A stretch of 22,207 bases of DNA, taken from IMG/VR virus record IMGVR_UViG_3300032282_000492, positions 1 to 22,207 of that record, one strand, 5' to 3'. Positions within the stretch are counted from its first letter, which is position 1, and each line of letters starts with the position of its first letter. The position numbers were made by a program, and so were the translations under genes. This DNA is from a virus. The notes below the pieces were generated by a model, which was given only the letters and a program-made list of their open reading frames with translations, was not told the origin of the DNA and did no database searches. Shown here in pieces: positions 11,020-18,320 of this stretch.

Positions 11020-11349
11020 ATGGCAACTACATATAAGGTCCTAGGGCAAGTAGCCCCATCAGCAACTACCGCAACAACACTATATACAGTTGGTGCTGGT
11101 AAGTCAACAGTAGTATCTACTATTGCTGTATGTAACCGTGCTGCTACTGCAGCAACATACCGAGTGGCTATTCGCCCTGCGGGTGCAACACTATCTAATG
11201 AACATTATATTGCCTATGATTCTACAGTGGCTGCTAATGATTCAACAATGCTTACTATTGGAATTACTCTTGCTACTACAGATGTTATTACTGTATATGC
11301 ATCAACTGCTAACCTTTCCTTCAATGCTTTTGGAAGCGAGATTGCATAA
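11020..11349 (+). CDS. Small beta-rich tail-associated protein, copy A (109 residues)
   Basis: ATG three bases after the upstream stop, with GGGAG as ribosome binding site. The product is Thr/Ala/Val-rich and beta-patterned: TATTLYTVGAGKSTVVSTIAV is followed by NRAATAATYRVAIRPAG. It aligns over its length with the 100-residue protein at 12455 (shared TATLYTV, STVV/TTVV, N.AA.AAT). No catalytic residues or signal peptide are visible. It is translationally coupled to a glycine-rich adhesin, so it probably forms part of the same tip or baseplate structure. Confidence 0.65.
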   Translation: MATTYKVLGQVAPSATTATTLYTVGAGKSTVVSTIAVCNRAATAATYRVAIRPAGATLSNEHYIAYDSTVAANDSTMLTIGITLATTDVITVYASTANLSFNAFGSEIA

Positions 11350-12248
11350 TGGCTATATCCAAACTTAACGCAGCAGCAGCAGTAAATGTTCCTTTAATTC
11401 CACAAGCGTATTTACCTTCGGGTTTAACACTTCGCAATACTTATACAAGCACAACAACTAGTATTACTGGTCAACCATCTCAAGTATTTGTTGTTTTAAT
11501 TGGCGGCGGCGGCGGTGGAACTAATGGTTCTTCTAACGAGTATGCTGGTGGTGCTGGAGGTGGCGGTGGTGGAATTATATCTTCTTGGGTTCCATCTTTT
11601 ACTTCTGTAACCATTGGCGCAGGTGGAACTGGTGGAGCAGCAAACGCAAATTGCATTGTTGGAACTGCAGGCGGAGAATCTTATGTTTCTTCAGTTCCAG
11701 GATTTACTGCTCCTGGCGGAAGCGGCGGCGGTAACTCTTCAGGTTATGGTGGCACTGGCGGAACATCTGGAACATATAAATTTATTGGAACAGTGGCTTA
11801 TACCGCTGGTGCAGCAGGCGGCGCAGGTGGTTCGTATCCAAGTGGTAGCAATGGCACTGCTGGCACCGCTAGCACTGTTGTAAGTGGCGGAGGTGGTGGT
11901 GGTGCTGGTTCAACAGGCACCGCTACTGCTTTCAATGGCGCAGCAGGTGGCGCGGGATATTATGCAGGTGGTGGTGGTTCAGGCGGAACTGGCTCTGGTG
12001 GTGTAGGCGGCTCAGGTGGTGCATCAACAAATTATAGTTACACAGGCGGAACAAGTGGCACCAATCTTGGTGGCGGAGGCGGGGCTGGAATTTTTGCTAA
12101 TGGAACAACTGCTACAACAACTGCTGGTGCCGCAGGTGGTTCAGGCGGAGGCGGTGGTGGTGGAGCAAGAGGTCCAGCAAACATAGGTATAAGTGCAATC
12201 GCAGCAGGTGGAAATGGCGGAGCAGGTGGCTGCTTCGTATATTGGTGA
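11349..12248 (+). CDS. Glycine-rich putative adhesin, copy A (299 residues)
   Basis: TAATG overlap fixes the start. After an N-terminal stretch of about 45 residues, VFVVLIGGGGGG opens a region of more than 200 residues dominated by Gly with Ala, Ser and Thr (SFTSVTIGAGGTGGAAN, GGAGGGGGGIISSW), ending GGAGGCFVYW. This fits the phage glycine-rich domain class in which a hydrophobic strand leads into polyglycine segments; in some tail tips such segments pack as polyglycine-II helices. A receptor-binding role is inferred. It pairs with the preceding small beta protein, and the same pair recurs at 12455-13431. Confidence 0.7.
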   Translation: MAISKLNAAAAVNVPLIPQAYLPSGLTLRNTYTSTTTSITGQPSQVFVVLIGGGGGGTNGSSNEYAGGAGGGGGGIISSWVPSFTSVTIGAGGTGGAANANCIVGTAGGESYVSSVPGFTAPGGSGGGNSSGYGGTGGTSGTYKFIGTVAYTAGAAGGAGGSYPSGSNGTAGTASTVVSGGGGGGAGSTGTATAFNGAAGGAGYYAGGGGSGGTGSGGVGGSGGASTNYSYTGGTSGTNLGGGGGAGIFANGTTATTTAGAAGGSGGGGGGGARGPANIGISAIAAGGNGGAGGCFVYW

Positions 12249-12454: not shown

Positions 12455-12757
12455 ATGGCTACAACAACTAAGGCGCTCGTAAGAGCAGCAGCAGGAACAT
12501 CAACGGCTACACTGTATACAGTGCCAGCCTCTACAACAACAGTAGTAACTAATATCGTGGTAACTAACTCAGCAGCATCTGCTGCTACATTTACCCTTAC
12601 GCTCAACAGCGTTGATATATTTACTACAACTGCAATTGCCGCTAACTCAACAGCAATGTTTGACTTAAAACAGGTAATGGCAACAACTCAAATTATTGCT
12701 GGTTTTGCCAGCGCAGTAACAGTTAAGTTTCACATCAGCGGAGTGGAGATTTCCTAA
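12455..12757 (+). CDS. Small beta-rich tail-associated protein, copy B (100 residues)
   Basis: ATG with GGAAGG upstream. TSTATLYTVPASTTTVVTNI and NSAASAATFTLTLNSV align with the 109-residue copy A, while the C-terminal half has diverged (MATTQIIAGFASAVTVKFHI). The final GVEIS corresponds to copy A's GSEIA. It overlaps the downstream glycine-rich gene by TAATG, exactly as copy A does with its own partner, so the gene pair was duplicated as a unit. Confidence 0.65.
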   Translation: MATTTKALVRAAAGTSTATLYTVPASTTTVVTNIVVTNSAASAATFTLTLNSVDIFTTTAIAANSTAMFDLKQVMATTQIIAGFASAVTVKFHISGVEIS

Positions 12758-13431
12758 TGGCATCAACAGTATTTCCTGTAGCATCATCTGGATTTAATCC
12801 AACAACTGTAACACTTCAACAAACAATTACATCTGGCTCTACCGTTACTATTCCTGCTGGAGTTAGCAATGTTTGGGCTGTTTTAATTGGCGGAGGTCAA
12901 GCAGGACAATCTAACGGTGCAGGCGGTGGCGGTGGCGGAGTTACTGTTGGCTGGACTCCTGTTAAAGTAGGTTCAAATTACATAGAAATAGGTGCTGGTG
13001 GCACTGGCAGTCTTGGTTCTGGTGGAAGAACTGCTCTTGGTATTTTAGTTGCAGGTGGTGGCGGAAGCACAGGTCCAGGTGCTGCCACAAATGGTGCTGG
13101 CTCAGGAATTGCATCTTATTATGGAGCACCCGCTGGTGCAAATTTTGGCGGTGGACAAATGGCTGGCAATGGTGGAGTAACCGCTGGTTCTGGAAGTTCT
13201 GGAATGTATACAGGTGGTGGCGGTGGTTGGAATAACGGCACAGGTCTAGCAGGTGGTGCTAGTTTAGCAACTGGTTACACAGGTGGTAGCGCTGGTAGTA
13301 ATCCTGGCGGCGGTGGCGCAGGATATTTAGCAAACGCAAGTGGTGGCACAGGTGGTTCTGGCGGAGGTGGAGGCGGAGGTGGCGGAACACCTGGTGCTGG
13401 TGGCGCGGGTGTCGCTCTTATTTATTACTAA
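12757..13431 (+). CDS. Glycine-rich putative adhesin, copy B (224 residues)
   Basis: TAATG start. The N-terminal SGSTVTIPAGVSNVWAVLIGG is the classic entry to phage glycine-rich domains (compare VPAGVTxVxVxxVGGGGG), followed by GGGGGGVTVGWTPVKVG and EIGAGGTGSLG. Long Gly-rich stretches reach the C-terminus GGAGVALIYY. It is shorter than copy A but shares the VLIGGG, W.P..V..IGAGGTG and terminal aromatic pattern. Likely host-recognition tip protein by analogy; the receptor is unknown. Confidence 0.7.
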   Translation: MASTVFPVASSGFNPTTVTLQQTITSGSTVTIPAGVSNVWAVLIGGGQAGQSNGAGGGGGGVTVGWTPVKVGSNYIEIGAGGTGSLGSGGRTALGILVAGGGGSTGPGAATNGAGSGIASYYGAPAGANFGGGQMAGNGGVTAGSGSSGMYTGGGGGWNNGTGLAGGASLATGYTGGSAGSNPGGGGAGYLANASGGTGGSGGGGGGGGGTPGAGGAGVALIYY

Positions 13432-15911: not shown

Positions 15912-16109
15912 ATGACAGCAGTAGAATGGGCTGGGTTGGCAGTCGCAGTAACAACTATAGCAGCAAGTTTTGTAGGTTCAGTTAGGTGGCTTGTAAAGCA
16001 TTACCTAAGTGAACTTAGAGTAAATGGGGGCAGTTCAGTTAAAGACCAAGTGAACCGATTGGAAACCCGAGTTGACCAAATTTATATCCTTCTTTGCGAG
16101 AAAGAATAG
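15912..16109 (+). CDS. Small single-pass membrane protein, DUF2746-like, 65 residues
   Basis: ATG two bases after the tail gene stop. Residues about 4-26 are one hydrophobic segment, followed by a polar helix (KHYLSELRVNGG) and a short predicted coiled coil (VKDQVNRLETRVDQIYILL). This resembles DUF2746-type proteins found near actinophage lysis genes. Its last 38 bases overlap the next gene in another frame. It could form a membrane-anchored oligomer working with the holin candidates; function is unproven. Confidence 0.65.
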   Translation: MTAVEWAGLAVAVTTIAASFVGSVRWLVKHYLSELRVNGGSSVKDQVNRLETRVDQIYILLCEKE

Positions 16110-17400
16110 CCGTCTACTATTAGTATCTTTTTTAACATTTACAAGTTTGTTCTTCGTGCCAACAATGGCAAGAGCAGATGACATAGTTATTGAATTAAAT
16201 CAAGAAACACCTTATATAGATACAATCGTTGAAGTTGCAGCACCAAGTGAATATGTAATTGAAACCTTTACTGGTCCTAGATTTGAAACACTTGCTGATG
16301 GAACTATGGCACAACGTGCCGGTTGGCTTGATTCTTGGATTGAACTACGCCAAGGAGAGCAAGTTCTTAGGGCAGATGATGATAGCAATCATGCTCCTGG
16401 CATTAATGAATATGCTTCTAAAATGACTGGAACTATTGATGTTGGCACATATACAATTCGTGCTACATCATATCTATACCGTGTGGGTTATGGTAATCCA
16501 ACTGGAACTTATACTCTCTATAGCAATCTGATTCCACCACCACCTCCTGAGGTTGTAGTAGACCCAGTTGTTCCTGAGCAACCACCAGTGGAACCACCTC
16601 CTGTGGAGCCACCACCAGTAGAGCCTCCTCCTGTAGTGGACCCAGTAACTCCTCCACCACCCCCTCCTCCCCCTCCTATTGTTATTCCTGACCCTCCACC
16701 TGCTCCTGAACCTCCTGTGGTCATTCCTGAGCCCCCTGTGGTAGAGCCAGAACCTCCCGTAGTTGAACCAGAACCCCCTGTTGTAGAGCCTGAGCCTCCA
16801 ATAGTGGAACCTGAGCCACCTACACCTATAGAAGAACCCCCTGCTGAGGCAGAGGAGCCTCCTGTAGTAGTTGAGGAACCACCAGTAGAGGCTGAAGAGC
16901 CACCAGTGGTAGAGGAAGAACCTCCAGTAGTAGAAGAAGAAGCACCTACTCCAGTAGAAGAACCGCCTTTGGTGGCAGATGAGAATTCTACTGATGAAGA
17001 AAAAGAAATTATTGCTGAGGCTCTTATTGAGCAGGCAGCAGGTAACGCAGTAACTGCAGAAGCAATAGCAGAAGCAGGTCTTACTTATGCTGACCTACCT
17101 CCTCAGACTCCTGTTGAAGTTCGTCAAGATGAGAATGGAAACCAAGTAGTTATTACGGCTGAGGTAGCAGCAGCACTTGTAGTGCTAGAAAGCCCAGCGC
17201 AATTAATAAACGCAATATTTACAGACCCAGCCCAAGCACTCCTAGCATTAGGAAGCATTGGTGCTGATATGTCACCTGAAGAACGTAAGGAATCAGGGAA
17301 GACAATTATCGCAGCAGTGATTGTTGGTGGCATAGCCACTCAATCCGCTTTAACAGTAGCCGCGTCATCAGGCGCAGTAGCGTATAGGAGAAAACCTTAA
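16072..17400 (+). CDS. Secreted proline-rich stalk protein with PPC-like domain and C-terminal membrane anchor, 442 residues
   Basis: The only plausible start is TTG at 16072, inside the previous gene; later ATG or GTG codons would destroy the signal peptide. Residues 1-35 are a signal peptide: basic N-terminus, hydrophobic core LLLVSFLTFTSLFF, and ARA before DD. Residues 36-150 form a beta-sandwich-like domain with DSWIELRQGEQVLRADDDS and GTYTIRATSYLY, resembling pre-peptidase C-terminal (PPC) domains. Residues about 155-303 are Pro/Glu/Val-rich, including four PPVVEPE-type heptads. Residues about 304-410 are helical, and 411-437 are a hydrophobic anchor followed by RRKP. The topology predicts a protein anchored in the membrane with a stalk crossing the wall. 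It sits between tail and holin genes. It has no LPXTG motif. Confidence 0.7.
   Translation: MTKFISFFARKNSRLLLVSFLTFTSLFFVPTMARADDIVIELNQETPYIDTIVEVAAPSEYVIETFTGPRFETLADGTMAQRAGWLDSWIELRQGEQVLRADDDSNHAPGINEYASKMTGTIDVGTYTIRATSYLYRVGYGNPTGTYTLYSNLIPPPPPEVVVDPVVPEQPPVEPPPVEPPPVEPPPVVDPVTPPPPPPPPPIVIPDPPPAPEPPVVIPEPPVVEPEPPVVEPEPPVVEPEPPIVEPEPPTPIEEPPAEAEEPPVVVEEPPVEAEEPPVVEEEPPVVEEEAPTPVEEPPLVADENSTDEEKEIIAEALIEQAAGNAVTAEAIAEAGLTYADLPPQTPVEVRQDENGNQVVITAEVAAALVVLESPAQLINAIFTDPAQALLALGSIGADMSPEERKESGKTIIAAVIVGGIATQSALTVAASSGAVAYRRKP
16732..16815 (+). repeat. PPVVEPE heptad repeat, four units
   Basis: Four 21-base units encode PPVVEPE three times and PPIVEPE once. Codons differ at most synonymous positions, so the peptide repeat is kept by selection or is old, not produced by recent slippage. 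It is part of a longer Pro/Glu stalk. Confidence 0.85.
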
Positions 17401-17573
17401 TGAAGCATTGGTTAGCAGATTTCCTTAGTCAGGCTTGGACACTACTCGGAATGGGTGTGGCTTGGGTTGTTCTAGATGGAAGCGCAAAAGCAGTAGTTGG
17501 TTATTCAATAGTCCTAACTACAATCGTATGGGCAGCAACCTATTGGTTGCGCAACCCTAAGGATAAAGAATGA
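17400..17573 (+). CDS. Putative two-pass holin, 57 residues
   Basis: TAATG overlap with the upstream gene. The product MKHWLADFLSQAWTLLGMGV continues with AWVVLDG, then AVVGYSIVLTTIVWAATYWL and a charged tail RNPKDKE. Two hydrophobic segments (about residues 7-26 and 31-50) with a short charged turn and charged C-terminus fit class II holins, which open the inner membrane to release endolysin. The stop overlaps the next start (ATGA). Confidence 0.6.
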   Translation: MKHWLADFLSQAWTLLGMGVAWVVLDGSAKAVVGYSIVLTTIVWAATYWLRNPKDKE

Positions 17574-17815
17574 AAAACTTCAAAAATATCTTTATGAGAA
17601 TCGTGGCAGTCTTTGCTGCCTCAGGTCTTTCAGTTATTGGTGCTGGCGCAGTTGTCGGTATCAGCACAGCCAAGGCAGTAATCCTGGCTGGAACATTAGG
17701 CGTAGCAACAGTCGTCGAGAAACTAGCCCGTGCTTTCCTAGATGATGGGAAACTCACAGCCGCTGAAATTAACGATGCCTTTGCTTCGGTGGACAAACGA
17801 GCAAAGAAGGACTAA
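17570..17815 (+). CDS. Putative holin-like membrane protein, 81 residues
   Basis: ATGA overlap with the previous gene. Residues about 8-30 (RIVAVFAASGLSVIGAGAVV) and 34-50 (AKAVILAGTLGVATVV) are hydrophobic; a charged C-terminal tail (VEKLARAFLDDGKLTAAEIN) follows. The tail pattern occurs in small membrane proteins beside actinophage endolysins. It lies directly before the endolysin, so a holin or antiholin role is probable. Which of the small membrane proteins forms the pore cannot be told from sequence. Confidence 0.6.
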   Translation: MKNFKNIFMRIVAVFAASGLSVIGAGAVVGISTAKAVILAGTLGVATVVEKLARAFLDDGKLTAAEINDAFASVDKRAKKD

Positions 17816-17816
17816 C

Positions 17817-18320
17817 ATGACTCAAAAAGATGACTTCCTAAAAGTAGCCGAAGGTGAAGTAGGAACCGTAGAAGGACCTAAAGACAACGAAACTAAGTAT
17901 GGCAAGTTTACTAAGCACGACTTTCAACCTTGGTGTGGAAGTTTTGTAATGTGGGTTGCTCATGAAGTGAAACTTAAACTTCCTAACTGTGTATACACAC
18001 CTGCTGGTAGGGCAGGATTCCAGGGAACTGGGGCTTGGAGTAATGCAGAAACTGCAAAACCTCAGCCAGGAGATATCGTGTTCTTTGACTTCGTTAAAGG
18101 CGGAGCAGATGTAGAGCACGTTGGAATTGTCCTAAAGGACAACGGTGACGGAACAGTCACCACTATCGAAGGCAATACTGCAGGAGATAAAAAGAAGAGC
18201 AAGAGCGAGGCTAACGGAGGCGAAGTGGCTGTAAAGACACGCGCTTACAAGGCTAAGAACAAACGCGGCTTGCTTCCTTTTGTAGTAGGCTTCGGAAGAC
18301 CTGCTTTCAAAGCAGACTAA
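17817..18320 (+). CDS. CHAP-domain endolysin, 167 residues
   Basis: ATG at 17817, two bases after the previous stop and preceded by AAGAAGG, is preferred over an in-frame ATG at 17742 inside the upstream gene. The whole protein is one CHAP (Cys/His amidohydrolase-peptidase) domain: catalytic Cys40 in PWCGSFVMW, His101 in DVEHVGIV, and E118/N120 in TIEGNT, with the typical PQPGDIVFFD before the His strand. It would cleave peptidoglycan amide bonds or cross-bridges. No signal peptide or separate wall-binding domain is visible, so release depends on holins. The C-terminus holds a basic stretch (KAKNKRG). Confidence 0.9.
   Translation: MTQKDDFLKVAEGEVGTVEGPKDNETKYGKFTKHDFQPWCGSFVMWVAHEVKLKLPNCVYTPAGRAGFQGTGAWSNAETAKPQPGDIVFFDFVKGGADVEHVGIVLKDNGDGTVTTIEGNTAGDKKKSKSEANGGEVAVKTRAYKAKNKRGLLPFVVGFGRPAFKAD

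Follow-up and report, generated by a model that had tools for sequence, protein, structure and literature searches.

The Llp protein of phage T5, a small lipoprotein made during infection, blocks one outer-membrane receptor of the Gram-negative host and spares the phage progeny from inactivation by cell debris. A module of two genes in IMG/VR record IMGVR_UViG_3300032282_000492, the whole 22,207-base virus record (positions 1–22,207) being hereafter referred to as the window, may work in a comparable manner. Like Llp, its larger product, here termed the stalk protein, would be a phage-encoded component of the host envelope, but the likeness implies no homology: in contrast to Llp, the stalk protein is large and modular, carries exchangeable heads, lacks a lipobox and is coupled to a partner with two transmembrane (TM) segments. 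With the LPXTG adhesins of Gram-positive bacteria it shares the order of domains, the Pro-rich stalk and the positively charged C-terminal end, whereas it differs from them in being encoded by a phage and in possessing a conserved C-terminal module (C-module) of unknown fold with a two-TM partner of its own; no LPXTG motif was recognized in the C-terminal sequences inspected by eye. A further resemblance concerns the head, the predicted fold of which is common to the PPC domain of a bacterial collagenase (5sv5) and to ColG, although the head of the window protein lacks a Pfam sequence match and is not attached to a protease. Finally, LysF1a, an 88-aa holin-like two-TM protein with N-in/C-in topology, works in the lysis cassettes of F1 mycobacteriophages (PMC13056207). 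LysF1a and the partner are likened by their outline, both being small two-TM proteins of actinobacterial phages encoded near lysis genes, with the N-in/C-in topology predicted for the partner; however, LysF1a acts together with LysF1b beside endolysins, whereas the partner follows the C-module and is found also away from lysis genes. In keeping with the original remark that no described system of this layout was known, none was found in database and literature searches, the latter revealing no phage-encoded surface lectin of this kind.

The stalk gene (16072–17400, plus strand; 442 aa) begins at a TTG codon located within the upstream gene (15912–16109, plus strand), with the 3′ end of which it shares 38 nt. 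The 65-aa product of the upstream gene, which contains a TM segment and a coiled coil, belongs to the phage backbone and not to the module. The TTG is supplied by a codon of the upstream gene. Homologues of this gene that have valine at the position encode it by GTT in 50 of 54 cases, compared with a background of 39% of all valine codons, and the isoleucine that replaces it in two sequences is encoded both times by ATT, so that the TTG is likewise kept; since these sequences are related and the events are not independent, the counts are to be read as support rather than as a probability. In two of the four exceptions to GTT (L037 and L046) the stalk gene begins at a later GTG. Because the TTG-preserving codons prevail among the homologues, the TTG start inside the neighbouring gene, as originally predicted, appears credible.

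The N-terminus of the protein is a predicted signal peptide (residues 1–35; 16072–16176, plus strand) of the sequence MTKFISFFARKNSRLLLVSFLTFTSLFFVPTMARA, with putative cleavage after ARA and in front of DD. Both its hydrophobic region and the cleavage site are conserved in the family: a strong N-terminal hydrophobic stretch is present in 105 and an AxA-type site in 110 of the 113 full-length relatives, which argues for the signal peptide that had been proposed from the window alone. The following head (residues 37–154; 16180–16533, plus strand) is the variable part of the protein. Its AlphaFold model (pLDDT 84) was compared with known structures using Foldseek, which is the check that had been suggested for this domain, and the best PDB match was to the PPC domain of bacterial collagenase 5sv5 (E 9.7e-4, probability 1.00, TM-scores 0.61/0.68), the collagen-binding domains of ColG ranking next. 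The model thus agrees with the PPC-like beta domain of the original prediction. Since the Pfam PPC profile gives no match in the window head at E-values up to 1, the assignment to PPC is made on structure. Collagenase PPC domains bind collagen, which counts against the glycan binding predicted for the window head.

The head is followed by a stalk of 146 residues (155–300; 16534–16971, plus strand), which includes four P(V/I)VEPEP heptads at residues 222–249 and corresponds in length, composition and repeats to the Pro/Glu stalk of about 150 residues noticed originally. Residues 154–306 consist of 42% proline, 22% glutamate and 20% valine, and the repeats have diverged in their DNA sequence. 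The constant C-module comprises a globular part (residues 301–405; 16972–17286, plus strand) and an Ala/Gly-rich helix (residues 406–438) with a basic RRKP tail, which together form the presumed membrane end (17287–17397, plus strand). The AlphaFold model of the C-module (residues 301–442; pLDDT 84) contains a small helical domain, two strands and a final helix of 34 residues, and no relative of it was found in the PDB, either by fold, using the model, or by sequence. The C-terminal membrane segment that had been expected was upheld in one respect and weakened in another. The terminal RR is present in 115 of 117 relatives, but the segment itself is poorly hydrophobic: on the Hessa scale its best 19-mer scores +2.4 kcal/mol, and the family ranges from +1.8 to +5.4. 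As a membrane anchor, the helix therefore appears marginal and not secure.

Searches of Pfam, PHROGs and NCBIfam assigned the stalk protein to no credible family. Matches to Ig_mannosidase, CtsR_C and TerB were weak, lay below the cut-off and were dropped, as was phrog_25538 (E 0.008), the match to which falls within the Pro-rich stalk.

Directly downstream of the stalk gene lies the gene for the partner (17400–17573, plus strand), a 57-aa protein predicted to form a two-TM hairpin, the start codon of which overlaps the stop codon of the stalk gene (TAATG). Homologues of the partner are 55–63 aa in length, with two hydrophobic segments each and a core that is strongly conserved; for the window protein no match was found in Pfam or PHROGs, holin families included. 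On the positive-inside rule both ends of the partner are expected to be cytoplasmic (N-in/C-in). The partner directly follows the stalk gene, with the stop/start overlap, in every complete locus examined. A reverse search with the partner alone retrieved at least 588 relatives, and the C-module was directly upstream in all 80 of the loci that were fetched. As the forward and the reverse loci agree, the pairing of the C-module and the partner holds both ways. Contact of the stalk protein with the membrane may be provided by this partner.

In order to describe the family, IMG/VR was searched with the C-module and with the PPC head separately. The former retrieved at least 336 contigs and the latter 12 loci, these and the following counts being counts of contigs, many of which are related and do not represent independent events and some of which are fragments. 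Full genes of the relatives follow a common plan, i.e. signal peptide, variable head, variable stalk, constant C-module and RR tail, and encode proteins of about 360 to 1233 aa. The place of the head is taken by PPC, PA14, SUEL lectin/FN3, a short Cys-containing head and others. The PA14 heads are recognized by Pfam with E-values down to 8e-11; the SUEL lectin head (E 6e-7) remains just below the Pfam cut-off, and the FN3-like domains that accompany it were called by eye. Comparison of the window protein with two of its relatives illustrates how the parts have been combined. With L099 it shares 83% identity in the signal peptide and 84% in the C-module, while the respective PPC and PA14 heads align at the level of shuffled sequences. 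The pattern is reversed in L002, where the head is 73% and the C-module 59% identical to that of the window protein. Heads are exchanged between phages on a constant C-module, and both this exchange and the obligate partner go beyond what had been read from the window. Each of 40 whole records has a single copy of the C-module; PA14, found in 12 of them, and the PPC head, found in 8, are each confined to the gene that carries the C-module.

The stalks of the relatives are of the Pro/Glu type, of a Pro/Ser/Thr type or consist of long helical repeats, as if the stalk types were interchangeable too. In L136, L151 and L172 long charged helical repeats of the EAARxAAEAEA type take the place of the Pro-rich stalk. 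The commonest head is the short Cys-containing domain (GWDNSNxFFxGKGDIARLFCEGG), which occupies residues of about 35–100 in L016, L019–L024, L032 and others.

Three proteins of uncultured Caudovirales in the BFVD, A0A6J5NGG5, A0A6J5NEV5 and A0A6J5P6J9, have predicted structures that match the C-module, to which they are 60%, 61% and 29% identical, respectively, and are probably members of the same family. The first two are listed as SUEL lectin and TerB-like, respectively; the names of all three are automatic, and no account of the family, of the exchange of heads or of the partner was found. In the INPHARED collection of 50,697 phage records neither the C-module nor the partner was detected, the searches including tblastn with the whole stalk protein and with the C-module. 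The C-module and the PPC head were likewise not found in 84,980 genomes scanned with two short peptide patterns each, a type of scan that detects only relatives sharing the chosen peptides and that distant cellular relatives could escape.

One lineage with PA14 heads retains only the C-terminal helix and the basic tail of the C-module. In L114 (3622–4001), L123, L131 and L147 the PA14 protein stops at a UAA codon, and the helix with an RRK tail is encoded in the −1 frame. A scan for this junction yielded ten contigs (L179–L188), among which L179 and L182 are contigs of L131 and L114, respectively, and L180 and L181 those of L147 and L123. In all ten the UAA comes immediately after a slippery heptamer, CCCAAAA or TTTAAAA, and is followed by a predicted stem-loop; RNA folding of one junction sequence gave a z-score of −3.7. 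These features point to programmed −1 ribosomal frameshifting as the probable means by which the anchor is added in this lineage and, if this is true, released and tethered forms of the lectin would be produced. Since the frameshift lineage keeps that part alone, the final helix and the basic tail would constitute a separable foot.

The capsid and tail-region genes of the window are most similar to those of ct2KA10 and of Streptomyces phages of the Beephvirinae. Neither the stalk gene nor the partner is found at the corresponding place in these phages, which share the tail gene, and the pair is therefore accessory. WhiB, an actinobacterial regulator, is encoded in 31 of 36 carrier records, and among 14 control genomes only Corynebacterium has it. 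Together with the nearest named relatives being Streptomyces phages, this indirect evidence indicates that the carriers are phages of actinobacteria. The initial view of a protein directed to the host envelope is supported by the clear signal peptide and weakened by the poor anchor. The window-type capsid family is present in only 19 of the 36 records, many of which are fragments, and the module is therefore carried by more than one phage backbone. No tyrosine integrase was found in any of the same 36 records, again many of them fragments, and lysogenic conversion was set aside on this ground, the search having covered integrases of the tyrosine type.

Based on these data, we propose the following scheme. 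The stalk protein would be exported through the Sec pathway and its signal peptide cleaved after ARA. The Pro/Glu stalk, presumably rigid, would hold the PPC head off the membrane and could cross the peptidoglycan, while the weakly hydrophobic helix and the basic tail of the C-module would stay at the cytoplasmic membrane, the foot probably resting against the two-TM partner, translation of which is coupled to that of the stalk protein. Exchange between phages would fit the heads, which are of glycan-binding type (PPC, PA14, SUEL lectin and others), to the glycans of different hosts. By occupying such glycans on an infected cell, the heads would keep rival phages as well as the phage's own progeny from adsorbing to that cell or its debris. 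That the two genes encode a display module which is exported and has a partner of its own is likely. The reading as a whole, in which the two genes form a surface-display module and its heads mask receptors of the host at a late stage of infection, is given a probability of roughly 45%. The wider proposal falls short of an even chance: lytic phages of actinobacteria would re-coat the infected cell using exchangeable glycan-binding heads, a constant foot and a two-TM partner, a programmed −1 frameshift would determine, in one lineage, how much of the lectin is released and how much is anchored, and the whole would represent a widespread and undescribed class. Receptor masking as the purpose of the display, proposed by analogy with T5 Llp, is put forward more tentatively still. 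Masking would be expected early, whereas in the window the stalk gene is situated among late genes. Sharing of heads with the tail fibres of the same phage would have backed masking, but this support is lacking, as PA14 and the PPC head were seen only in the C-module gene in the 40 records. Surface decoration or exclusion, both of which were suggested originally, remain our best guess.

The frequent nearness of holin-like and endolysin genes counts against display and could mean a role in lysis. In the window the pair is followed by the next gene of the lysis cassette, which encodes a holin-like membrane protein with a weak match to a PHROG holin (17570–17815, plus strand), and by the gene for a CHAP endolysin (17805–18320, plus strand), and genes of both kinds follow the pair in several other lineages. 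Given that LysF1a, also a two-TM protein, works in F1 mycobacteriophage lysis cassettes (PMC13056207), the partner might be a holin or a regulator of one, and the stalk protein might span the wall and help to disrupt it or to time lysis. However, the position between tail and holin genes that was noted originally applies to the window and not to several other lineages that bear the module: the pair adjoins the terminase gene in L143 and L153, lies among structural genes in L029, L063 and L076, and is found in other regions in L064, L080 and L090, in all cases with no endolysin gene neighbouring. Besides, two further candidate holins are already encoded in the window, and a lysis machine would hardly be expected to exchange heads of the recognition type. 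An accessory role in lysis thus appears unlikely. The spanin-like function proposed at first is not supported, either as an o-spanin/i-spanin pair or as a u-spanin. The hosts look monoderm, the actinobacterial signature, albeit indirect evidence, implying no Gram-negative outer membrane on which a spanin could act; the family members inspected have no lipobox cysteine, their cleavage sites being AxA followed by D or E; and the place in the lysis cassette is inconsistent, with heads (PPC, PA14, SUEL/FN3 and others) that vary and suit recognition better.

The evidence from the family, which agrees well with display and recognition, leaves masking and adhesion indistinguishable. The displayed lectins could keep host cells or particles near, so that the progeny would meet new hosts at burst, and the succession of a signal peptide, an adhesive-type head, a stalk, either Pro-rich or helical, that differs widely in length, and a foot is indeed the layout of bacterial surface adhesins, with head types that vary. 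On the other hand, the binding itself is hypothetical, and most actinobacteria of aquatic habitats are small cells that live freely. We consider adhesion or aggregation improbable as well, ranking it behind a role in lysis. A virion component, such as a decoration of the tail or capsid, is very improbable: the gene directly follows a tail-region gene and stalked binding heads resemble fibres, but the signal peptide is conserved in 105 of 113 relatives, the membrane partner is obligate, and the gene is missing at the same place in ct2KA10 and the Streptomyces Beephvirinae, the closest named phages, which have the tail gene in common with the window.

Whatever their function, the two protein families are always encoded together in hundreds of environmental phages and have no curated match in Pfam, PHROGs or NCBIfam. 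If the display reading is true, lytic phages of abundant aquatic actinobacteria would use a plug-in head to remake the sugar-binding surface of the host cell, much like what bacteria achieve by means of adhesins. This would bear on superinfection, on the loss of progeny to debris and on contact between cells in the plankton.

Two additional observations concern the surroundings of the module. In ct2KA10 (L097, 9215–9921), a close relative that lacks the stalk gene, the gene immediately after the TM/coiled-coil gene encodes a different endolysin-like protein, judged to be peptidase-like by eye. The tail region of the window encodes two glycine-rich proteins (11349–12248 and 12757–13431), the second of which matches Pfam Gly_rich_2 (E 1.4e-5), and each of the two genes is preceded by one for a similar small protein of 100–109 aa.
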